A stretch of DNA of 64,000 bases. Source: Pseudomonas putida. Its GTDB lineage: Bacteria; Pseudomonadota; Gammaproteobacteria; Pseudomonadales; Pseudomonadaceae. The stretch covers positions 1,764,998-1,828,997 of the forward strand of contig CP124529.1 in assembly GCA_029953615.1 (NCBI GenBank), read 5' to 3'. Shown piece by piece: positions 25,784-35,324 of the stretch (position 1 is its first letter; each line of letters starts with the position of its first letter). The position numbers and the translations under genes are program-made. The notes under the pieces were generated by a model that was not told the DNA's origin, did no database searches, and saw nothing but the letters and a program-made list of their open reading frames with translations.

Positions 25784-26215
25784 TCATCCGAGCCTTCGCC
25801 AGAGCCACCAAAGGCTCAGGATTTTAGCCCCTTCAGAAGCTGCGAAAAGGCTCAACCAAACCCACGTACTGGTGTCTGGCAATAATAGAAACAAAGAAAT
25901 CGACGGAACTATAAACAAGACACGAAATGGAAATTGAACGAAAGCCAGATAACACCCGGATCTTCTCCCCATACAAAGTAATATGCTACTGGCAACAAGG
26001 GATACCTGGACAATCAGCCCCATCCACACCATGAACTCAAGCCCTCCCCCCCACTGCTCCATGTTTGCAAGGGCGGAATTGAAATCACTCACAAAGGGGA
26101 TCACACCTCTATTCAGGCTACTGACCACAACGAAAGAAATGTAAAAAGCATCCATACCCCCCCAAAACAAACCGACCAAACGCATTGACCTTATCAAACC
26201 GATGCCCCAGTTCAT
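25784..26215 (-). CDS. Unrecognised small membrane protein, low GC
   Basis: A 143-residue protein with about four hydrophobic segments (SMRLVGLFWGGMDAFYISFV, GLEFMVWMGLIVQVSLVASS, VLFIVPSISLFLLLP and WVWLSLFAASEGAKILSLWW). I do not recognise a family. Its ATG overlaps the stop of the upstream gene by 4 bases (ATGA), so the two are co-translated. GC content and codon choice are clearly lower than in all neighbours, which points to horizontal transfer. Small paired genes with a multi-helix partner often include an immunity protein, but nothing here proves that. Confidence 0.6.
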   Translation of the reverse strand: MNWGIGLIRSMRLVGLFWGGMDAFYISFVVVSSLNRGVIPFVSDFNSALANMEQWGGGLEFMVWMGLIVQVSLVASSILLCMGRRSGCYLAFVQFPFRVLFIVPSISLFLLLPDTSTWVWLSLFAASEGAKILSLWWLWRRLG

Positions 26216-26526
26216 TTATCTTTTAACTCATATTCTTCATTTGCGATTATTGGTCGCCAATGCCATGAGGCTCCCGACACATCCCAGGCATCATCAGCCT
26301 CCACATAAATTTGCGTTATTTTACGTTCCATTCCATATCTGTGGATTGCGGAAGATGGCGAAAAATCCCGCTCATCTTCATCAAGCGGCACCCATTCCTG
26401 CGTAACTGTTCTGGTCGTATTCGCAAAATCTTTCCCTGACGACAAGAAGACTCGCCCCTCATCTCCTCTTGATGTCAGGAAATTCGCAACAAAGGCAGCA
26501 CTCGAAGCAAGTTTATTAACACGCAT
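26212..26526 (-). CDS. Unrecognised small soluble protein, low GC, coupled to membrane partner
   Basis: About 104 residues from ATG 26526 (MRVNKLASSAAFVANFLTSR), which has GGAAG 9 bases upstream. An earlier ATG at 26559 adds 11 residues but lacks a ribosome site. The body is polar with TQEWVPLDEDERDFSPSSAI and ends EYELKDK. No family recognised. The stop overlaps the start of the membrane protein gene. The pair is separated from the acyl-CoA dehydrogenase gene by about 190 bp of low-GC sequence with no clear feature. It could be the remaining 3' end of a longer lost gene. Confidence 0.55.
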   Translation of the reverse strand: MRVNKLASSAAFVANFLTSRGDEGRVFLSSGKDFANTTRTVTQEWVPLDEDERDFSPSSAIHRYGMERKITQIYVEADDAWDVSGASWHWRPIIANEEYELKDK

Positions 26527-26712
26527 GGATGTTAACTTCCACTTGCCCGGACCACTCATCGCAGAAAATCTTTCATGGAAAGCAACACCTGTACGGATGC
26601 CAAACCGCAGGTCTCATTACACTTTCACAACCCATATCACCCAAACCTATTAACCTGTCCCCCACCCCGCCGCCCTCCTACACTCCCAGCATCCCGCCTC
26701 AGGACCGCGACC

Positions 26713-28515
26713 ATGCCCGAGACCCTGCTCAGCCCCCGCAACCTCGCCTTCGAGCTCTACGAAGTCCTCGACGCCGAAGCTCTCACCCAGCGCCCACGCT
26801 TCGCCGAGCACAGCCGCGAAACCTTCGATGCGGCCCTGACCACCGCGCGCACCATCGCCGAAAGGTTCTTCGCCCCGCACAACCGCAAGGCTGACGAAAA
26901 CGAGCCGCGCTACGTCGACGGTCGCGCCGAGCTGATCCCCGAGGTAAAACCCGCAGTCGATGCCTTCCTCGAAGCCGGCTTCCTCAACGCCAACCGCGAC
27001 TTCGAAGTCGGTGGCATGCAGCTGCCAAGCCTGGTCTCGCAAGCCTGCTTCGCCCACTTTCAGGCCGCCAACGCCGGCACCACGGCCTACCCGTTCCTGA
27101 CCATGGGTGCGGCCAACCTGATCGAAAGCTTCGGCACTGAAGAACAGAAGCGCCTGTTCCTGCAGCCGATGATCGAGGGCCGCTACTTCGGCACCATGGC
27201 CCTGACCGAACCCCACGCTGGCTCGTCATTGGCCGATATCCGCACCCGAGCCGAACCTGCCGGTGACGGCAGCTACCGGCTCAAGGGCAACAAGATCTTT
27301 ATCTCCGGCGGCGACCACGAACTGTCGGAAAACATCGTGCACATGGTCCTGGCCAAGCTGCCAGACGCACCGCCCGGGGTTAAAGGCATTTCGCTGTTCA
27401 TCGTGCCCAAGTACCTGGTCAACGAAAATGGCAGCCGCGGCCCGCGCAACGATGTGCTGCTGGCCGGGCTGTTCCACAAGATGGGCTGGCGCGGCACCAC
27501 CTCCACCGCGCTGAACTTCGGCGACAACGGCCAGTGCGTCGGCTACCTGGTCGGCCAGCCGCACCAGGGCCTGGCCTGCATGTTCCAGATGATGAACGAG
27601 GCACGCATCGGCGTTGGCATGGGTGCAGTGATGCTCGGCTACGCGGGCTACCTGTATTCACTGGAATACGCCCGCCAGCGGCCACAGGGTCGGTTGCCGG
27701 ACAACAAAGACCCGCACAGCCCGGCGGTGCCAATCATCGAGCACAGCGATGTGAAACGCATGCTGCTGGCGCAGAAAGCCTATGTCGAAGGCGCCTTCGA
27801 CCTCGGCCTGTATGCCGCACGCCTGTTCGACGACACCCAGACCGCCAGCGATGAAAGCACCCGCAAACAGGCGCAGGAACTGCTCGATCTGCTGACACCG
27901 ATCGTCAAGTCCTGGCCCTCGGCCTTTTGCCTCAAGGCCAACGAACTTGCGATCCAGATCCTCGGCGGCCACGGCTACACCCGCGAATACCCGGTAGAGC
28001 AGTACTACCGCGACAACCGCCTGAACCCGATCCACGAAGGCACCGAGGGCATCCAGTCGCTCGACCTGCTCGGCCGCAAGCTGGCGCAGAACAATGGCGC
28101 CGGGCTCAAGCAGCTGATTCGCCTGATCGCCGCCACCGGCGAGCGCGCCAGCCAGCATCCGAACCTCGACCCGCTGCGCCACCCGCTGGAGCAACTGGTC
28201 AACCGACTGCAAGGAGTGACCCTGGCCTTGCTGAGTGACCTGGCCCAAGGCAAAGTCGCCGGCGCCCTTGCCAACTCCGCCCTGTACCTCAAGGCTTTCG
28301 GCCACTGTGTAATTGGCTGGCGCTGGCTGGAGCAGGCGATTCACGCCGAACTCGGCCTGCTCAAGGGCACCCCCGCCGACCGCGACTTCTACCTTGGCAA
28401 GCTGCAGGCCGCACGTTATTTCCTGATCTGGGAAGTACCGGGCTGCCATAATGAGCTGGCCTTGCTCGAGGCGCGCGACGACACCTGCCTCGCCATGCAA
28501 GACGCGTGGTACTAG
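26713..28515 (+). CDS. Acyl-CoA dehydrogenase, long (about 600 residues) family
   Basis: A 600-residue flavoprotein of the long acyl-CoA dehydrogenase type. FAD/substrate motifs include FGTMALTEPHAGSSLADIRT, YRLKGNKIFISGGDHEL, and in the C-terminal part IQILGGHGYTREYPVEQYYR with the downstream EGTEGIQSLDLLGRK. It oxidises an acyl-CoA to its 2-enoyl form. The chain length cannot be read from sequence. ATG at 26713 starts MPETLLSPRNLAFELYE; longer frames upstream run through low-GC non-coding DNA. Its last 105 bp are repeated, diverged, at 32425-32529. Confidence 0.92.
   Translation: MPETLLSPRNLAFELYEVLDAEALTQRPRFAEHSRETFDAALTTARTIAERFFAPHNRKADENEPRYVDGRAELIPEVKPAVDAFLEAGFLNANRDFEVGGMQLPSLVSQACFAHFQAANAGTTAYPFLTMGAANLIESFGTEEQKRLFLQPMIEGRYFGTMALTEPHAGSSLADIRTRAEPAGDGSYRLKGNKIFISGGDHELSENIVHMVLAKLPDAPPGVKGISLFIVPKYLVNENGSRGPRNDVLLAGLFHKMGWRGTTSTALNFGDNGQCVGYLVGQPHQGLACMFQMMNEARIGVGMGAVMLGYAGYLYSLEYARQRPQGRLPDNKDPHSPAVPIIEHSDVKRMLLAQKAYVEGAFDLGLYAARLFDDTQTASDESTRKQAQELLDLLTPIVKSWPSAFCLKANELAIQILGGHGYTREYPVEQYYRDNRLNPIHEGTEGIQSLDLLGRKLAQNNGAGLKQLIRLIAATGERASQHPNLDPLRHPLEQLVNRLQGVTLALLSDLAQGKVAGALANSALYLKAFGHCVIGWRWLEQAIHAELGLLKGTPADRDFYLGKLQAARYFLIWEVPGCHNELALLEARDDTCLAMQDAWY
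28411..28515 (+). repeat. Left copy of 105-bp imperfect direct repeat
   Basis: The last 105 bases of the acyl-CoA dehydrogenase gene match 32425-32529 without gaps, with 13 differences by my count (about 88 percent). Central blocks such as GGCTGCCATAATGAGCTGGC are identical. The two copies bracket the four-gene cassette. Confidence 0.9.
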
Positions 28516-28533
28516 ACCGCGCCTGCACCTGCA

Positions 28534-29454
28534 TTACTGGGCACACTTGGCGGGCGATGCCGAACTGCGGGGGTTGCGAGCAATAGCTATTCCTGCGGCG
28601 ACTACCGCAATGCCCAGGTAGGTTGTCCAATGGATCGCGTCGCCGAACATCAACGCAGCCCATAACAAGGTCACGGGTGGTTCCAGATAGACCAGCACCG
28701 ACACGCGGGTCGCCGTCAGCTTGGTCAGCAACATCCACAGGCTCAAATAGGCGATGAACGTCGAGAACAGTGTCAGCCAGGCGACAGCCACCCAGGCCTG
28801 GCTGCTGACAGGCACCTCGATCAAGCCCAACGGCAAGCCTGTAGCAGTGAGCAGCACCAGCGTCGCGGTCGATTGCAGAAACAGCGGCATCAGCAAACCG
28901 TCCTTGCTGTGGTCTGTCTCCAGAACCGATTGCCGTCGCTGGTACAGCGTGGCGATCGACAACGTGATGGCAGCGATCAGCGGCAGAGCGTACAACCAGA
29001 GGCCAAGCTGCGCCGTCGACAGGCTGTACTCTCCCAGAATGACTACGCTGACACCGGCAAACCCAAGCACAAGGCCCAGCCACTCCTGACGGCCACTGCG
29101 TTCACCGTGGCCTCTGCTGCTCATCGATGCCGTGATCAATGGCTGCAAGGCGCAAATGATGGCAGCAATCCCGGCAGGCAGGCCGCCGCGGATGGCGATG
29201 TAGACGCTGACCAGGTAAGCAAACTGGGCCAGAAATCCGATCACGGCGTTGTAACGTATTTGCGCCCATGACAGTAAATGCAGCCGGTGCAAGACAAAGG
29301 GCAGCAGGCAGATGCAGACCAGCAAAAAACGCCAGAACAGCAGGTTTATCGCACCCGCGTCCTCCGTGCCTAGCCGGGCGCCAATGAAGCCCGAACTCCA
29401 GGAAAGGACAAAGATGGCTTGCAGCAGGATCAGGTAAGGCGCACTGCTTGGCAT
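28534..29454 (-). CDS. EamA/DMT-superfamily exporter of the inserted cassette
   Basis: A 306-residue protein with about ten hydrophobic helices in two EamA repeats. The first repeat shows FVLSWSSGFIGARLGTEDAG and the second LTLFSTFIAYLSLWMLLTKL and ARNPRSS at the end. DMT exporters move amino acids and other small metabolites out of the cell. ATG at 29454 follows AGGGG by 7 bases; a GTG at 29460 overlapping the upstream stop is the alternative. It is the last gene of a three-gene operon with the oxygenase and methyltransferase, so it probably exports their product. Codon bias is weaker than in the flanking core genes. Confidence 0.85.
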   Translation of the reverse strand: MPSSAPYLILLQAIFVLSWSSGFIGARLGTEDAGAINLLFWRFLLVCICLLPFVLHRLHLLSWAQIRYNAVIGFLAQFAYLVSVYIAIRGGLPAGIAAIICALQPLITASMSSRGHGERSGRQEWLGLVLGFAGVSVVILGEYSLSTAQLGLWLYALPLIAAITLSIATLYQRRQSVLETDHSKDGLLMPLFLQSTATLVLLTATGLPLGLIEVPVSSQAWVAVAWLTLFSTFIAYLSLWMLLTKLTATRVSVLVYLEPPVTLLWAALMFGDAIHWTTYLGIAVVAAGIAIARNPRSSASPAKCAQ

Positions 29455-29456
29455 AT

Positions 29457-30416
29457 TCACGCCCCTGTTTGATGCAATTCCTGGAACGTGATCGGCTCGA
29501 TGCCTAGACGTGCATAGTGTCGGGCCGCCGAGCGGTGCAGGGCCCAGCGTAACCGCAGCCAGTTGGGGATGGTCGCGGGAATGCCATCATCGGAGGCGAG
29601 GTGCCAGAAACTGTTGGAATCGTCATTGAAGTAAGGGCAATGGAAGGACAACACCAGTGACATGCGTCTCCCGCCCAGCACCGGGCGAACACCGTGGAAC
29701 AATCGACTGCCATAGATGAACAAGGCATCGCCTGGCGCATCCAGGCGTGCGGTTTCAAAGGTACGATAATCCAGGGCATCAAAGGTATCGACGGTACCGT
29801 TGTGGAACACGAACTCGCCGCCGCTATAGTCGTTGGCGCCCGACAGCACGATGTTCAGCACATAATTGGTGCCGTCCGTATGCCACATGCCCAGTTGTTG
29901 CTGTTGCTCGACCGGCTTGGGGTAGTAATAGTTGATCTGCGAGCGGGCGTTGAGCATGGGGTAAGGCACCAGCGGCACCCCGGCAATACGCGAGACGGCC
30001 AACAGGAATGAGCGGCTGCACATCATGTCGTGGATGAACGATGACAGCGCCGTCACCCCACGTGTGCGCCGGGAAATTATCCAGTCACTGTCACCTGCGC
30101 CCTTCTCCAGGCGGCCACAGATGTCTTGCAAGGCCGCAACTCCCTCGGCAGTGAACAACCGATGGACCACCGCCACACCGGTGATGGTATCCGCTGCAAT
30201 TTTTGCGTGCGGACTGTGGCTGTAGCCCAGTTCCCCGAGTGTTCGCGTATCGGTGACGGCAGGCCCTTGCTGGCGGAGCAACGTGTCCCGCCAGGCGACC
30301 TGTTCACCCAGGCGGATCGACGAAAGTCGCGGAGTGCGCTTCAACGTTGACTTGAGCGCCAGCTTTACGCGGCCGACGCCGCGCTCGAACAACGGTAAGG
30401 TATCTGAGCGATTCAT
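29457..30416 (-). CDS. Fe(II)/2-oxoglutarate-dependent oxygenase of the cassette
   Basis: A 319-residue protein with the facial triad of the 2OG-Fe(II) superfamily: His179 and Asp181 in LGMWHTDGTNYVLNIVLSG and distal His241 in GSRLFHGVRPVLGGRR. Arg250/251 is the likely 2-oxoglutarate anchor, and YSGGEFVFHN gives the usual double-stranded helix strand. The N-terminal 90 residues are not recognised. Such enzymes hydroxylate, desaturate or rearrange small molecules or peptides. The stop lies next to the exporter start and 25 bases follow the methyltransferase stop, so the three genes form one operon. Substrate unknown. Confidence 0.8.
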   Translation of the reverse strand: MNRSDTLPLFERGVGRVKLALKSTLKRTPRLSSIRLGEQVAWRDTLLRQQGPAVTDTRTLGELGYSHSPHAKIAADTITGVAVVHRLFTAEGVAALQDICGRLEKGAGDSDWIISRRTRGVTALSSFIHDMMCSRSFLLAVSRIAGVPLVPYPMLNARSQINYYYPKPVEQQQQLGMWHTDGTNYVLNIVLSGANDYSGGEFVFHNGTVDTFDALDYRTFETARLDAPGDALFIYGSRLFHGVRPVLGGRRMSLVLSFHCPYFNDDSNSFWHLASDDGIPATIPNWLRLRWALHRSAARHYARLGIEPITFQELHQTGA

Positions 30417-30441
30417 GATGGGACTGTCCCTGTTTTGGCCG

Positions 30442-31422
30442 CTACTGGAGGTACTTCGCGATTTGATAGCGCACCGAGCCGTCCCCGCTGGCAAATTCGT
30501 CCAGCACACTGCAGTTACAGTGCCGGGCCCTGATGTGACGGAACTGTTCGGGCGTATATTTGAGGCAGATATTGGTCAGCAGGTAGCCATGTTGTTGCAG
30601 GCGCTGCACAGGCTGCAGGGTCACGGCAACATGGACCGTTTCGTCGAGGATCCGCAAAGGTACGAGGATGGCTTCATGCTTCCCCGACGGGGTGAAGCCT
30701 TGCTGAAGCGCAACCACCTGGGAGAACTGGAGCATGTTGGGGTTGGCGTAGAACTCAAGGATTGGCCGTTCCAGCCCTTCCTCGTATACCTGCATTTCCG
30801 AAAGAATGTAGGTCCTGTCACCCGCAAGACTGCGGATCAACCTGCCCGTACTGACTGGCAACTCGTTGCCCTCCTGGAAACCAAGCAAGGTGATCAGCGT
30901 GAGCTCCTGGTCGTGACGCAAAACGTCATGGGTTACGGTGCGATAGTCGGCAGCGATGTAATTGAAACTGCCATCCCTTTGCACTATGGGACGCACCGCA
31001 TCGCTCATCGCGGGTTCCGAGGTCTGGTTGATGTCGATAGCGGTGTAGCGGATGGAGCTGGAGGTCTCGGCCATTCGCTTCAACAAGCAGGCGCTCTTGA
31101 TCGGCTCGGGGCCCAGCTCGACATAGTGCACGCGGCGCCCACTGCCCAGTGCCGCCAATCGCTCGGCGACATTGCCGATGACACTCTTGAGCGCACCTTG
31201 ACCCTGTCCGTCAGCGCAAAGCCCGTCCTGGCCCACGCCCTGTTCATTCAAGGCGCGCATCAGCAGAAATATCTCGTGGTTGAAGCGGTGATCGCTGTGC
31301 GGACCGGCGTCAGGCTGAGCCAGAGTCGAATACTTCTCATGGTTCTCGACAGTCCATAGCCGTGCATTCTGGTACGAGGGGGTGCGCACGAGTGCATCTA
31401 CAACGAAGTCGTTCAGGCTCAT
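30442..31422 (-). CDS. SAM-dependent methyltransferase, EgtD-like, of the cassette
   Basis: A 326-residue protein. Residues 98-107 (VHYVELGPEP) look like SAM motif I, and YTAIDIN at 126-132 supplies the acidic residue that contacts the SAM ribose. LITLLGFQEGNEL near 177-188 resembles the GxxxGN segment of EgtD-type enzymes. EgtD trimethylates the amino group of histidine; related enzymes act on other amino acids. Membership is inferred by pattern only. ATG at 31422 is favoured because AAAGGA lies about 9 bases upstream; an ATG 3 codons earlier sits on the ribosome site itself. First gene of the operon, divergent from LysR. Confidence 0.68.
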   Translation of the reverse strand: MSLNDFVVDALVRTPSYQNARLWTVENHEKYSTLAQPDAGPHSDHRFNHEIFLLMRALNEQGVGQDGLCADGQGQGALKSVIGNVAERLAALGSGRRVHYVELGPEPIKSACLLKRMAETSSSIRYTAIDINQTSEPAMSDAVRPIVQRDGSFNYIAADYRTVTHDVLRHDQELTLITLLGFQEGNELPVSTGRLIRSLAGDRTYILSEMQVYEEGLERPILEFYANPNMLQFSQVVALQQGFTPSGKHEAILVPLRILDETVHVAVTLQPVQRLQQHGYLLTNICLKYTPEQFRHIRARHCNCSVLDEFASGDGSVRYQIAKYLQ

Positions 31423-31460
31423 CCGTATCATTCCTTTGCAATTTCGGGGGGAGCTATGCC

Positions 31461-31524
31461 TTGCCCACACAGTAAGAGGGGGTATAAAGCCTGTACAGTT
31501 GATTAAATCGAAGCGCTGGTTCGA
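31461..31524 (+). promoter_or_regulatory. Promoter-like and operator-like elements of the cassette
   Basis: On the plus strand TTGCCC (31461-31466), a 16-base spacer and TATAAA (31483-31488) fit a sigma-70 promoter for the LysR gene. An inverted repeat TCGAA-N7-TTCGA at 31508-31524 lies downstream of it. It would suit autoregulation by the LysR protein and control of the divergent operon. There is no exact T-N11-A box in it, so the operator call is tentative. Confidence 0.45.
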
Positions 31525-31546
31525 TCCAGCCAAATCAGGTGGTTCA

Positions 31547-32422
31547 ATGGCGAAAGGCCTCGACATCAACGTACTGAGAACCTTCCAGGCAGTAGCCCGA
31601 CTGGGGCGCTTCAAGGATGCCGCCGACTATGTCCATCGCAGCCCCTCGGCGGTGACCACGCAGATCCAGAAGCTGGAGGAACAGATCGGGCAACAGCTGT
31701 TTGCTCGCAGCAACCAGTCCGTCGAGTTGACCCCGGCAGGTCGGCACCTGCTGGTCGAGGCGACACGTTTTCTGATGGCCCATGACAGGCTGCTGGCTAC
31801 GCTGTCGCCCCAGCAGATGACCGGCAAGGTCCGCCTGGGGGTACCGGACGGCTATGCAGCCAGCCTCATGAGTGATTTCCTGCCGGTTTTCGTCGCCAGC
31901 AATCCGAAACTGGAACTGGAAGCCGTAGCGCGGTCCAGCGCAGAGCTCATCGACCTGTTTGCGCGACAGCGCCTGGACCTGGCAGTAGCGGTCAGCAACG
32001 AAGCATGCAGACAAGGGGAGTGGCTGCGCGCGACCAGGCCTCGTTGGGCCGCGGCCCCAGGGTTCCAACACAACCCTGAGCGCCCCTTGCCGCTGGCCCT
32101 GCAGTTGAAGGGCTGTCCGTACCGAGAGGCGGCACTGCAGGCATTGAAGGCGCATGGCATTGCGTACCGCATCCTGCTGGAGAGCGCCAACTGGCAAGCG
32201 GTACTGGCCTGTATGAGAAGCGGCCTGGCAGTCGGTATTGTCGAGGGGCTGGACAGTGGCGATACCACACTGGCGTACGTTGAAGGCATGGGTTTCCCCG
32301 AACTCCCCGAGCACCACGTCTATCTGCTGACGGACACCGCTCACCCTGTTGCGTCGCATCTGAACGATATGTTGAAAGCCGCCATTCAGAAGGATGGGGC
32401 GGCAAACCCAGGCCTTTGTTGA
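31547..32422 (+). CDS. LysR-family regulator of the cassette
   Basis: A 291-residue LysR regulator. The N-terminal winged helix reads INVLRTFQAVARLGRFKDAA and SPSAVTTQIQKLEEQIGQQL. A ligand domain follows from KVRLGVPDGYAASLMSDFLP. ATG at 31547 follows AGGTGG. It is divergent from the methyltransferase-oxygenase-exporter operon with 124 bp between starts and so is its probable regulator. Its stop codon is only 2 bases from the diverged acyl-CoA dehydrogenase remnant, so it marks the right edge of the cassette. Confidence 0.88.
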   Translation: MAKGLDINVLRTFQAVARLGRFKDAADYVHRSPSAVTTQIQKLEEQIGQQLFARSNQSVELTPAGRHLLVEATRFLMAHDRLLATLSPQQMTGKVRLGVPDGYAASLMSDFLPVFVASNPKLELEAVARSSAELIDLFARQRLDLAVAVSNEACRQGEWLRATRPRWAAAPGFQHNPERPLPLALQLKGCPYREAALQALKAHGIAYRILLESANWQAVLACMRSGLAVGIVEGLDSGDTTLAYVEGMGFPELPEHHVYLLTDTAHPVASHLNDMLKAAIQKDGAANPGLC

Positions 32423-32424
32423 CC

Positions 32425-32529
32425 GCACTTTATTTCCTGACCCGGGCAGTACCAGGCTGCCATAATGAGCTGGCATTGCTCGAGGCGCGCGACGACACTT
32501 GCCTTACCATGCAGGACGAGTGGTTCTAA
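32425..32529 (+). pseudogene. Remnant of an acyl-CoA dehydrogenase 3' end; right repeat copy
   Basis: In the same frame as the dehydrogenase this segment encodes YFLTRAVPGCHNELALLEAR, then DDTCLTMQDEWF and a stop. It matches the true C-terminus at 28411-28515 (YFLIWEVPGCHNELALLEAR). It has no start and no upstream body. It is best read as the 3' end left on the far side of an insertion, or the original 3' end displaced by a recombination event. Confidence 0.88.
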
Positions 32530-32561
32530 GGGGGAGCCACCGTGTACACGGAGGCTTCCAC

Positions 32562-34005
32562 ATGTTTGATTCCAGCGCCCTGCTGCGCCAGCGCTTCGCC
32601 GCCCTGCGCAGCACGGCCGAGATGTTTTCCCTGCGCCATGTGAAACAGTCGCACCAGGCGCTGTCGGTACGCCGAAATGTCGCCGAACCGCCATTGTTCA
32701 GCCAGGACGAAGGCGCCATGCTCACCGTGCGGGTCAATGGCGTGGAAGCCTATGCCGCTACCGCCGACTTGTCCCAGGCCGGCCTGCAACGCGCGCTGGA
32801 GCACGCCGAGTCCCTGGCCCGGCAGACTGCCCGGCACAGCCTGCTGGACCTGCGCGAGCAACCCGTTACCAGCGCACGCCACGACCACATTTCACCGAAC
32901 TTCGACCAGCCGCTGCCCAACCTCGCCGATTGCCTCGGCCTGCTCGCGGCCGAATCGGCCAGCCTGCCCAAGGACAACCGCCTGGTGGACTGGCAGGCCA
33001 GCCTGGGCCTGAGCCTGGTCGAGCAGACCTACCTGAACTCGGCGGGCGCCGAACTGCGCCACGCACAGCGCTTCCTGTTCCCAGGCCTGGGCGTGACTGC
33101 CAGCGACGGCCAGGACAGCCAGAGCCGCAGCCTGGGCCGCGACAATTTCGGCCAACAGGGCGGTTTCGAGATCATCGAGCGCTGCGGCCTGGTCGGCGCT
33201 GCCCGCCGGGTGGCCGATGAGGCACTACAGCTGCTGCTGGCGCCCAACACCCCCAGCGGCCCGCGCGACCTGCTGTTGATGCCGGACCAGATGATGCTGC
33301 AGATCCACGAATCCATCGGCCACCCGCTGGAGATGGACCGTATCCTCGGCGACGAGCGCAACTACGCCGGCACCAGCTTCGTCAAAGCCAGCGACTTCGG
33401 CCACCTGCAATATGGCTCCAGCTTGCTGAACGTGACCTTCGACCCGACCATCGGCGAAGAGCTGGCCAGCTATAGCCATGACGACGACGGCTCCACGGCC
33501 AGCAAACAGTTCCTGATCCGCGACGGCCTGCTGCTGCGCCCGCTGGGCGGTGCACTGTCGCAGTTCCGCTCCGGCCTGGAAGGCGTGGCCAACAGCCGTG
33601 CCTGCGGCTGGAACCGTGCGCCAATCGACCGCATGGCCAACCTCAACATCGAGCCGGGTGACCAATCCCTGGATCAACTGATCGGGGGCATCGAGCACGG
33701 TATCCTGATGCGTACCAACCGTTCCTGGTCCATCGACGATGCGCGCAACAAGTTCCAGTTCGGCTGCGAATGGGGCCAGTTGATCGAAAACGGCGAGCTC
33801 AAAGGCATCGTCAAGAACCCCAACTACCGCGGCATCTCCGCGCAGTTCTGGCGCAACCTGGTGGCGGTCGGCGACAGCAGTACGTTCCAGGTGCTGGGCA
33901 CGCCCAACTGCGGCAAGGGCGAACCCAACCAGGTGGTGCGGGTCGGCCACGCCTCGCCGGCCTGCGTATTCCGCCAGATCGACCGTATTCGGAGGAGACG
34001 CCTGA
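32562..34005 (+). CDS. TldD-family metalloprotease, frame broken by 1 extra base near its end
   Basis: TldD/PmbA superfamily protease subunit. The zinc motif HESIGH (HExxxH) is at residues 249-253 in MLQIHESIGHPLEMDRILGD, and GWNRAPIDRMANLNIEPG and NYRGISAQFWRNLVAVG are typical of the C-terminal half. GGAGG 7 bases before ATG 32562 fixes the start. As sequenced the frame runs on through the next gene. Removing one C from the CC at 33983-33984 gives RQIDVFGGDA and a TGA at 34003-34005 that overlaps the next ATG (TGATG). The corrected length is 480 residues, the normal TldD size. Confidence 0.86.
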
Positions 34006-35324
34006 TGAAAAACGCTTTCGAAACCTTGGTCGGGGATGCGCGCAAAGCCCTGCAGACAGGCGAGCAGTTCACTCTGGGCTACAGCGCCGAACATTCGCAA
34101 TTCGTGCGTTTCAACCACGCCAAGGTGCGCCAGGCTGGCGAAGTTAGCCAGGCCAGTGCGCAGCTGCGGCTGATCCGCGATGGCCGTCAGGCAGAGCAAC
34201 AGCTGACCTTGAGTGGTGACGCGCAACTGGATAGCCAGCGCCTGATCGCGGCCCTGGAGCAACTGCGCCAGACCTTGCCACTGCTGGCTGTCGACCCGTA
34301 CCTGCGTCTGGACGAAAGTGCCTGGCACAGCCAAAGCCAGCAGGAGCAGCCGCTGCCCGAACTGAGCGAAGTACTGGCCCTGCTCGACCACGAGGCGGGC
34401 GACCTGGACCTGGTCGGCATCTACGCCGCCGGGCCCATCTGCCGGGGCTTCGCCAGCTCGTTCGGGGCCTTCGGCTGGCACCAGGCCAACAGCTTCAACT
34501 TCGACTGGAGCCTGTTCCACGAAAACGGCGAGGCGGTGAAGGCCAACTACGCCGGGCAGGTATGGAGCTCCGACGACTTCACCGCACGCCTGCGCCAGGC
34601 GCGAGAGCAACTGGGCTTCCTTGGCCGCCCGGCAATCACGCTGAAGCCTGGTAGCTACCGCGCCTATCTGGCCCCGGCGGCCATGGACGAAATAGCCGGC
34701 ATGCTGTGCTGGGGCGGCTTTTCCGCACAGGCCTTGGCCACCGGCAACAGCGCCCTGCAGCGTCTGTACAATGGCGATGCGCGGCTGAGCCCGCTGGTGA
34801 GTTTTACCGAACAGGTCAGCGGTTCGCTGAGCCCGGCGTTTTCCGACGAAGGCTCGCCGCGCCTGGATGTACCGTTGATCCGGCAAGGCGAAGCCCTGCA
34901 TCGGCTGATCAGTGCGCGCAGTGCAGCCGAGTTCGAGCTGCAGGCCAATGGCGCCGACAGCTACGAGTCACCGTGCGCGCTCAGCCTGGCAGCAGGTAGC
35001 CTGCCCGGCGAGCAGATCCTGGAGCGGCTCGGCACCGGGCTGTACATCAGCAACCTGTGGTACCTGAACTATTCCGACCTGCCGGCGGCACGCATGACCG
35101 GGCTGACCCGCTTCGCCACCTTCTGGGTGGAGAACAGGCAGATCCAGGGGCCGGTGAGCACCATGCGTTTCGATGACAGCCTGTACAGCCTGCTAGGCAG
35201 CCAGCTGGAGGACCTGACCCAGGAGCGCGAGATGATCCTGTCGACCAGCACCTATGGACAGCGCAGTACCGGGTCGAGTCATTTGCCGGGGGCACTGGTC
35301 AAAGGGTTGACCTTGACATTGTGA
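34005..35324 (+). CDS. PmbA/TldE-family protein, partner of the TldD-like protease
   Basis: A 439-residue protein starting MKNAFETLVGDARKAL behind GGAGGAGA at 33991. It resembles the non-catalytic PmbA/TldE subunit: no HExxxH motif, but the same fold-type segments (LVGIYAAGPICRGFASSFGA, TGLYISNLWYLNYSDLPAAR). TldD and TldE form a heterodimer that degrades unfolded peptides and processes some ribosomally made peptides. In this sequence it is joined in frame to the upstream gene only because of the extra base there. It is treated here as a separate gene with its own ribosome site and overlapping start. Confidence 0.84.
   Translation: MKNAFETLVGDARKALQTGEQFTLGYSAEHSQFVRFNHAKVRQAGEVSQASAQLRLIRDGRQAEQQLTLSGDAQLDSQRLIAALEQLRQTLPLLAVDPYLRLDESAWHSQSQQEQPLPELSEVLALLDHEAGDLDLVGIYAAGPICRGFASSFGAFGWHQANSFNFDWSLFHENGEAVKANYAGQVWSSDDFTARLRQAREQLGFLGRPAITLKPGSYRAYLAPAAMDEIAGMLCWGGFSAQALATGNSALQRLYNGDARLSPLVSFTEQVSGSLSPAFSDEGSPRLDVPLIRQGEALHRLISARSAAEFELQANGADSYESPCALSLAAGSLPGEQILERLGTGLYISNLWYLNYSDLPAARMTGLTRFATFWVENRQIQGPVSTMRFDDSLYSLLGSQLEDLTQEREMILSTSTYGQRSTGSSHLPGALVKGLTLTL

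Follow-up and report, generated by a model that had tools for sequence, protein, structure and literature searches.

A displaced acyl-CoA dehydrogenase gene end marks a small gene-turnover hotspot with empty sites in the Pseudomonas putida group

At one place in the chromosome of Pseudomonas putida (contig CP124529.1), the 3' end of a gene for an acyl-CoA dehydrogenase (ACAD) occurs twice, once on the intact gene and once as a stranded remnant in front of tldD, with a cassette of four genes between the two. We studied it within a stretch of 64,000 nucleotides (positions 1,764,998 to 1,828,997 of the forward strand; hereafter the window), for which an earlier note, made from the letters alone, had proposed that the cassette entered by recombination at the gene end. 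The scar of gene-end displacement is real, and it lies at a small hotspot with empty sites in close relatives. Its history was probably an old insertion at the ACAD end, made without an integrase, followed by spread and loss through homologous exchange.

The repeat is confirmed. The sequence at 28409-28514 is found again at 32423-32528, with direction and reading frame unchanged, as an ungapped match of 106 nt with 12 mismatches, five of them silent and seven protein-altering; the 105 nt and 13 differences first reported describe this repeat too, with the final stop-codon base included, where the thirteenth difference lies. In a blastn comparison of the repeat with the 64-kb window the second copy reached an E-value of 1e-35 and the next-best match spanned 12 nt, while an ungapped search (seed 12, at least 60 nt, copies within 15 kb) recovered two other repeat families, both of which we take to resemble repetitive extragenic palindromic (REP) elements. 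Between the copies lie four genes, as had been noted; they are genes for an EamA transporter, a 2-oxoglutarate (2OG) oxygenase-like protein and an EgtD-like methyltransferase, all on the minus strand, and for a LysR regulator on the plus strand (Table 1). The four proteins belong to no integrase or transposase family, in agreement with the original impression that no integrase or insertion sequence (IS) was visible, and ARAGORN found no tRNA genes in the window. The suggested comparison of composition gave a GC content of 0.574-0.623 and a third-position GC content of 0.71-0.75 for the cassette, against 0.645-0.662 and 0.84-0.86 for ACAD and tldD.

Loci were read from genomes after a search for ACAD in 199 genomes of the genus and for the ACAD end in 398, and since they were chosen as best matches, the fractions below describe close relatives and not the genus ('P. 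putida group' is a label of our own). ACAD itself was matched in all 199 genomes (E ≤ 1e-100, paralogues counted), and 41 loci held both ACAD and tldD. The predicted empty sites exist: in 30 of the 41 the ACAD stop codon stands 29-32 nt from the tldD ATG, and the four genes are by no means a fixture of all close relatives. The complete cassette, about 4.0 kb, is found in seven loci, and G091 carries a 2.2-kb version without the oxygenase and methyltransferase. The other three (G110, G456, G460) hold an unrelated two-gene insert of 1.5 kb, with the ACAD end likewise duplicated. A third cargo, consisting of one open reading frame (ORF) with no Pfam match, occurs in G365 on a background without tldD downstream, where a second ACAD end of 145 nt is 94.5% identical to the first. 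On this background a presumably antiporter-like gene lies 106 nt from ACAD in G413, 212 nt in G318 and 2.4-4.8 kb in G365, G002, G481, G476 and G430; the last four showed no second ACAD end, and some of the intervening genes may be native.

At least two ACAD-end matches were returned for 19 of the 398 genomes; in the coordinates of 18 of these and of the window, a second match falls within about 4 kb of the gene in ten genomes (six with the cassette, three with the two-gene insert, one with the third cargo), and the extra matches in the remaining nine are 41-49% identical copies elsewhere. This search missed the right copies of G142 and G091, which are decayed. The methyltransferase occurs in nine of 293 relatives, five times at 76-100% identity and always at the ACAD/tldD site, four times at 41-42% identity elsewhere. 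All inserts with a duplicated ACAD end span 1.3-4 kb, and no larger element was met.

The right-hand copy had been judged probably the native one, a view upheld by its surroundings, as it continues into conserved intergenic DNA and tldD just as the gene end does at empty sites. Several right copies are nearest to the ACAD ends of empty relatives (G482 is 98% identical to G163, G045 95% to G077, G110 98% to three genomes, G000 92.6% to G331 and G081). Those of G103 and G072 are nearest each other at 94.5%, and that of G456 is nearest its own left copy, the 137 aligned columns of the two holding 2 mismatches and a 2-nt gap. The right copy is a decaying, remnant-like sequence: a single-base gap interrupts it in G072 and G103, part of its interior is deleted in G341, and in G142 and G091 it has only about 70% identity to any functional ACAD end, with alignment scores of 42 and 43.5 where 500 shuffles reached at most 23 and 22.5. 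A remnant also stands before tldD in P. guariconensis (L114; score 61, with no more than 24 reached in 500 shuffles), although no ACAD turned up in the 15 kb of sequence read. Between the cassette and putA of that species (L114 9903-13448) lies a gene that we assume to be Rhs-like, enclosed by a 118-nt direct repeat of 91.5% identity and REP-like appearance. The lysR frame enters the remnant and stops at the same internal TGA in G045, G482, G341, P. putida NBRC 14671 and the decayed G091, and ends just ahead of the remnant in G000, G103 and G072; because the join falls at the same place in five relatives, one junction is common to most cassette genomes. Homology between left and right copies runs past the stop codon into ACAD-tldD intergenic DNA in G045, G456, G460 and G110, and covers 144 alignment columns in P. 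reidholzensis, so the original duplication was probably longer than 105 nt.

We propose that a DNA segment bearing both cargo and a duplicate of the ACAD 3' end would have recombined with the resident ACAD end, leaving ACAD with a complete end (the left copy) and shifting the resident end downstream to tldD (the right copy). The likeliest step would be integration of a circle by a single crossover, or an equivalent ends-in event, through some 110-150 nt of homology. Later spread would proceed by homologous exchange of occupied and empty alleles through the ACAD and tldD flanks and the repeats, and loss by repeat-by-repeat recombination that restores a clean empty site. Three unrelated cargoes each have a duplicated ACAD end whose right copy starts at a point specific to the cargo, and no integrase family was recognised among the cassette proteins, the G110 pair or the G365 ORF. 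The earlier note's insertion at the 3' end of a host gene is supported by the empty sites and the native right copy, with first capture of the gene end a step that we infer; its route of homologous recombination explains spread and loss, and would extend to the first entry only by supposition. Carriage of the cassette by plasmids or phages was considered and rejected, as the methyltransferase had no match in 50,697 phage records and matched three of 72,556 plasmid records, all of them Burkholderia replicons of 2.4-3.5 Mb.

A number of points weigh against this history. No insertion event was observed and no circle detected; the 106-nt ends are too short for well-supported trees; and the 41 loci are best ACAD or ACAD-end matches and no random sample. 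P. reidholzensis, with its longer right copy, and P. guariconensis differ at the junction, and the longer copy of the former means that the shared junction is not universal. Nor does the left copy appear clearly foreign. The last 105 nt of ACAD in cassette genomes have a mean identity of 0.79-0.925 to 12 empty relatives, compared with 0.916-0.948 among those 12, and being only slightly less like the empties they give no clear sign of a distant donor. A foreign left copy was also sought with 105-nt windows along ACAD and not upheld, most cassette genomes passing into the repeat without a jump; G142 and G091, the P. fulva pair, fall to 0.79 at the ACAD end, but some of their earlier windows are equally low. 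Finally, the duplication is not inherent to the cassette, since only one of 20 loci elsewhere (that of Burkholderia catarinensis) has a clear gene-end repeat, and gene-end duplication as a trait of the cassette was rejected. The scoring drew on 30 loci, nine at the ACAD/tldD site and 21 others, of which 20 were scored (L135 fell to a coordinate filter, and L141-L150 were excluded); weaker matches in L123, L124 and L132 involve no recognisable gene end.

Silent divergence speaks to the age of the cassette and, as well, to the most durable rival. At four-fold degenerate sites G000 and G482 differ by 0.19 in ACAD, 0.17 in tldD and 0.17-0.27 in the cassette genes; G000 and G103 differ by 0.20-0.21 in the core genes, with cassette genes between 0.19 (LysR) and 0.41 (oxygenase). 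For G142 and G091 the two core genes each give 0.13, EamA and LysR 0.11-0.14. Since the divergence of the cassette mostly equals or exceeds that of its flanks, the cassette is old; it has been inherited or exchanged among species since its insertion, and between some genome pairs it appears mosaic. A single ancient insertion, passed on by vertical descent with many independent losses by repeat recombination and scant or no transfer between species, is a possible history, if not the favoured one. The same silent divergence, G142 and G091 included, fits one ancient gain and many losses as well, a further point to be set against the preferred account, and vertical descent also finds support in the lysR/remnant junction common to several cassette genomes, in the mutual closeness of the G103 and G072 right copies and in the strong decay of those of P. 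fulva type (G142, G091). It is harder to reconcile with right copies in G045 and G482 that resemble empty species, with mosaic four-gene distances within the one pair G000-G103, and with the patchiness of the site: on a tree of ACAD and tldD, quickly made, with several weak branches and with gain and loss indistinguishable, the three site states need at least eight changes, and cassette genomes G045 and G072 adjoin the empty G077 and G057.

For the first entry, the main alternative to an ends-in event is homology-facilitated illegitimate recombination, in which a homology joint in ACAD would be paired with an illegitimate joint inside the recipient's ACAD end. According to the passages of PMC2884548 and PMC5361080 that cite it, the process is known in transformable Pseudomonas stutzeri. 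It dispenses with an integrase and yields a donor-type left and a native right copy, and we nevertheless consider it rather unlikely, because by our reasoning a joint upstream of the anchor end requires a sister chromosome or a circle, and the near-identical repeats of G456 are not specific to that route.

Two further explanations fare worse. Gene 3' ends are classic attachment (att) sites, and a tyrosine recombinase that worked in trans, or has since disappeared, and used the ACAD 3' end as attB would suit both the repeated use of one gene end and a Stenotrophomonas cassette that lies between two identical tRNA-Gly genes. Site-specific integration is very unlikely all the same: an integrase beside an att site, as expected of an integrative island, is wanting among the cassette proteins, as any integrase family is from the G110 pair and the G365 ORF; the repeats are about 104-145 nt long (64 nt in G341, with its internal right-copy deletion), begin at positions that vary with the cargo and diverge along their length; and the inserts measure just 1.3-4 kb, with no large element met. 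Tandem duplication of a longer ACAD-containing segment, with most of the second ACAD later deleted, would likewise account for a 3' remnant ahead of tldD and would accord with the resemblance of the two-gene inserts to pairs upstream of ACAD in other genomes, but is highly improbable given a single match to the ACAD body in 41 of 41 loci, the retention of just 104-145 nt or so by all three cargoes, and the comparison with 14 putA-ACAD intervals, in which the two-gene inserts gave short matches (37-87 nt, none beside the remnant) and the cassette none.

The ACAD end stands out within the sampled part of the P. putida genome. A scan of 40 stretches of 20 kb together with the window (864 kb) for direct repeats of 60-400 nt, 0.3-12 kb apart at E ≤ 1e-8, with REP-flagged pairs set aside by a motif-based filter, found no other pair with one copy in a long ORF and the other outside any; the other non-REP pairs comprised six joining coding stretches and one, of 82 nt, outside ORFs. 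Further cases came from 123 fetched loci, which overlap and are enriched for the ACAD/tldD place. In G134 (L009 3249-4793) two copies of the ACAD 5' end and the DNA upstream of it (72 nt at 96%, 162 nt at 94%) flank about 1 kb; the segment holds a 189-aa ORF resembling a membrane protein, a gene-start version of the repeat signature. A parallel of gene-end displacement with empty relatives is found in Burkholderia sp. BCC1644 (L127 10381-11872), where the 3' end of a small gene, which we take to be DUF2000-like, is displaced over 134 nt (97%) by a 1.2-kb insert. Among the other nine Burkholderia loci six are empty at this site, with the flank 2-28 nt from the gene end, B. metallica (L128 10378-10789) keeps a second copy in decayed form (79%, 99 nt), B. 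catarinensis has a different flank, and L122 lacks a gene-end match.

In B. catarinensis the end of a gene, presumably a livF-like ABC ATPase, is repeated together with the DNA just after it (L125 5862-5950 and 13263-13351), the second copy lying 7.4 kb downstream, past the cassette and two further genes. As the livF-like gene stands beside the cassette in all ten Burkholderia loci and is followed by a second copy in one, the repeat is at most a possible entry scar; searches by class and by family for empty sites gave no suitable Burkholderia genome (one of 274 matched, at 80% and from another genus, and then none of 250). In Stenotrophomonas rhizophila (L120 1-9294) the cassette lies between identical tRNA-Gly(gcc) genes 9.1 kb apart, one of them at the contig end, and is possibly part of a tRNA-site island. 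A bolder proposition is that displaced gene ends serve for the attachment of small mobile cassettes without an integrase, a class so far unrecognised, which move as circles of cargo plus about 100-150 nt of a host gene end. We regard it as doubtful; if it were true, host recombination would insert such circles into the ends of housekeeping genes and release them again, and cargoes for biosynthesis, toxin/immunity-like pairs and genes of unknown function would share one gene end, and likewise at other genes in other genera.

Set against described systems, the gene-end scar is a variant of already known integrase-less cassette exchange, its closest precedents being Rhs tip displacement, minimal mobile elements and the H47 island. 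For Rhs tips, PMC2935791 (2009) proposes homologous recombination with circles, and the arrangement of intact gene, new DNA and displaced 3' fragment of the same gene is found here too. ACAD is, however, a metabolic gene whose product type is unchanged, its displaced end is no more than a remnant, and the cargoes have no relation to the gene; there is no variable C-terminal tip, the ACAD end being one alignable sequence at occupied and empty sites. A minimal mobile element, in the definition of Saunders and Snyder (2002) as given in PMC3898611, consists of differing whole-gene cassettes between two conserved genes, exchanged by homologous recombination alone. Variable whole-gene content between ACAD and tldD answers to this (30 empty, eight cassette, three other), yet the definition as quoted includes no duplicated gene end, which all three cargoes here possess. 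H47 of Escherichia coli, as portrayed in PMC5426353, is similarly a small recombinase-less island with imperfect direct repeats (148/144 bp) and natural empty sites, which excises by host-provided means. It differs in that its excision is RecA-independent and runs via short blocks of identity, in its microcin cargo, and in having no relation to a gene end within that account. Hotspots free of mobile elements, with recombination in flanking core genes, have been described by Oliveira et al. (2017; PMC5635113), and share with the ACAD site integrase-free turnover through core flanks; exchange was inferred statistically there, whereas at ACAD a physical scar is retained.

Turning to the cargo, a methyltransferase profile search placed the module of LysR, methyltransferase, oxygenase and EamA in 29 of 40 loci, from Pseudomonas, Burkholderia and Stenotrophomonas. 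P. cerasi has it without EamA, and ten more distant loci have a related methyltransferase, with oxygenase and EamA undetected and LysR in nine. The methyltransferase scores 18.7-19.6 bits with PF10017, under the 23-bit gathering cut-off, and that family matches 19 of 31 homologues (E ≤ 0.01). Its structural model, with a predicted local distance difference test (pLDDT) score of 93.7, has the EgtD fold: the best Foldseek match is EgtD 4uy7 (E 3e-13, template modelling (TM) score about 0.6), and the 15 best rows are all EgtD. For the oxygenase, PF23169 (HalD) matches 14 of 25 homologues (E ≤ 0.01), the window protein itself not among them, and the model (pLDDT 84.8) has the BesD/HalD superfamily fold, matching BesD, a BesD hydroxylase homologue and HalA/HalD in Foldseek (6nie at E 6e-8 and TM 0.45/0.58; 7jsd at E 4e-7). 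BesD-type halogenases have lost the metal-binding carboxylate. The cassette oxygenase keeps its HTD motif, and the alignment invariants are H179, D181, H241 and R251; with D181 present in 25 of 25, hydroxylation is expected and not halogenation. The likeness to mycobacterial EgtD and to BesD, HalD and Hydrox is one of fold, identity being about 12-20%; sequence searches of solved structures with the cassette enzymes gave no match at E ≤ 0.1, and a literature search on these enzymes returned nothing relevant. Judged by fold and family, the cargo probably synthesises a small N-methylated, hydroxylated amino-acid-like compound and exports it, with LysR as the regulator. A 278-aa protein on a short contig (P0169), whose start aligns with the methyltransferase and the rest with the oxygenase, is either a fusion or an assembly chimera.

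Table 1. Features of the ACAD/tldD site, in window coordinates.
Feature	Position	Strand	Basis
Acyl-CoA dehydrogenase (ACAD), intact	26713..28515	+	Pfam ACAD domains; ATG start picked by conservation
Left repeat copy, the present ACAD 3' end	28409..28515	+	repeat comparison
EamA/DMT-family exporter	28534..29460	-	PF00892, E 6e-26
Fe(II)/2OG oxygenase, BesD/HalD/'Hydrox'-like fold, HTD...H motif	29457..30416	-	start from homologues
EgtD-fold S-adenosylmethionine (SAM)-dependent methyltransferase	30442..31422	-	start from homologues; PF10017 homologues, Foldseek
LysR-family regulator, divergent from the other three genes	31547..32422	+	PF00126/PF03466
Right repeat copy: displaced native ACAD 3' end, bare remnant	32423..32529	+	repeat and comparison with relatives
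Native ACAD-tldD intergenic stretch, presumed tldD ribosome-binding site	32530..32561	+	alignment with empty sites
tldD, in a single frame with pmbA here	32562..35324	+	Pfam PmbA_TldD domains

Two features of the flanks may be added. Upstream of ACAD lies a low-GC pair of small genes (25784-26559, minus strand), toxin/immunity-like by layout alone and with no Pfam match, whose relatives form the 1.5-kb insert downstream of ACAD in G110, G456 and G460 and stand upstream of ACAD in G065 and G331; the length of the putA-ACAD interval varies. In G065 (L162 7327-8893) an 80-nt direct repeat of 94% identity, partly REP-like, surrounds the small gene pair upstream of ACAD. Downstream, tldD and pmbA form one frame of 920 codons, apparently owing to a frameshift of one base close to where tldD ends (33980-34010), for which a sequencing error is possible; the fused frame occurs in none of 30 relatives compared, which have 480 codons in 29 cases and 481 in one.

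Gene-turnover hotspots with neither integrase nor IS are many, and the first entry of DNA into them is usually obscure because homologous exchange leaves no scar. At the ACAD site the scar has been retained, close species offer the empty, occupied and alternative states, and three unrelated cargoes serve as an internal control, which together make the entry and exit of integrase-less islands directly testable in the P. putida group. Small gene sets are apparently swapped here at the end of a gene without a visible integration enzyme, and the cargo so exchanged is an uncharacterised enzyme module conserved across Pseudomonas, Stenotrophomonas and Burkholderia.

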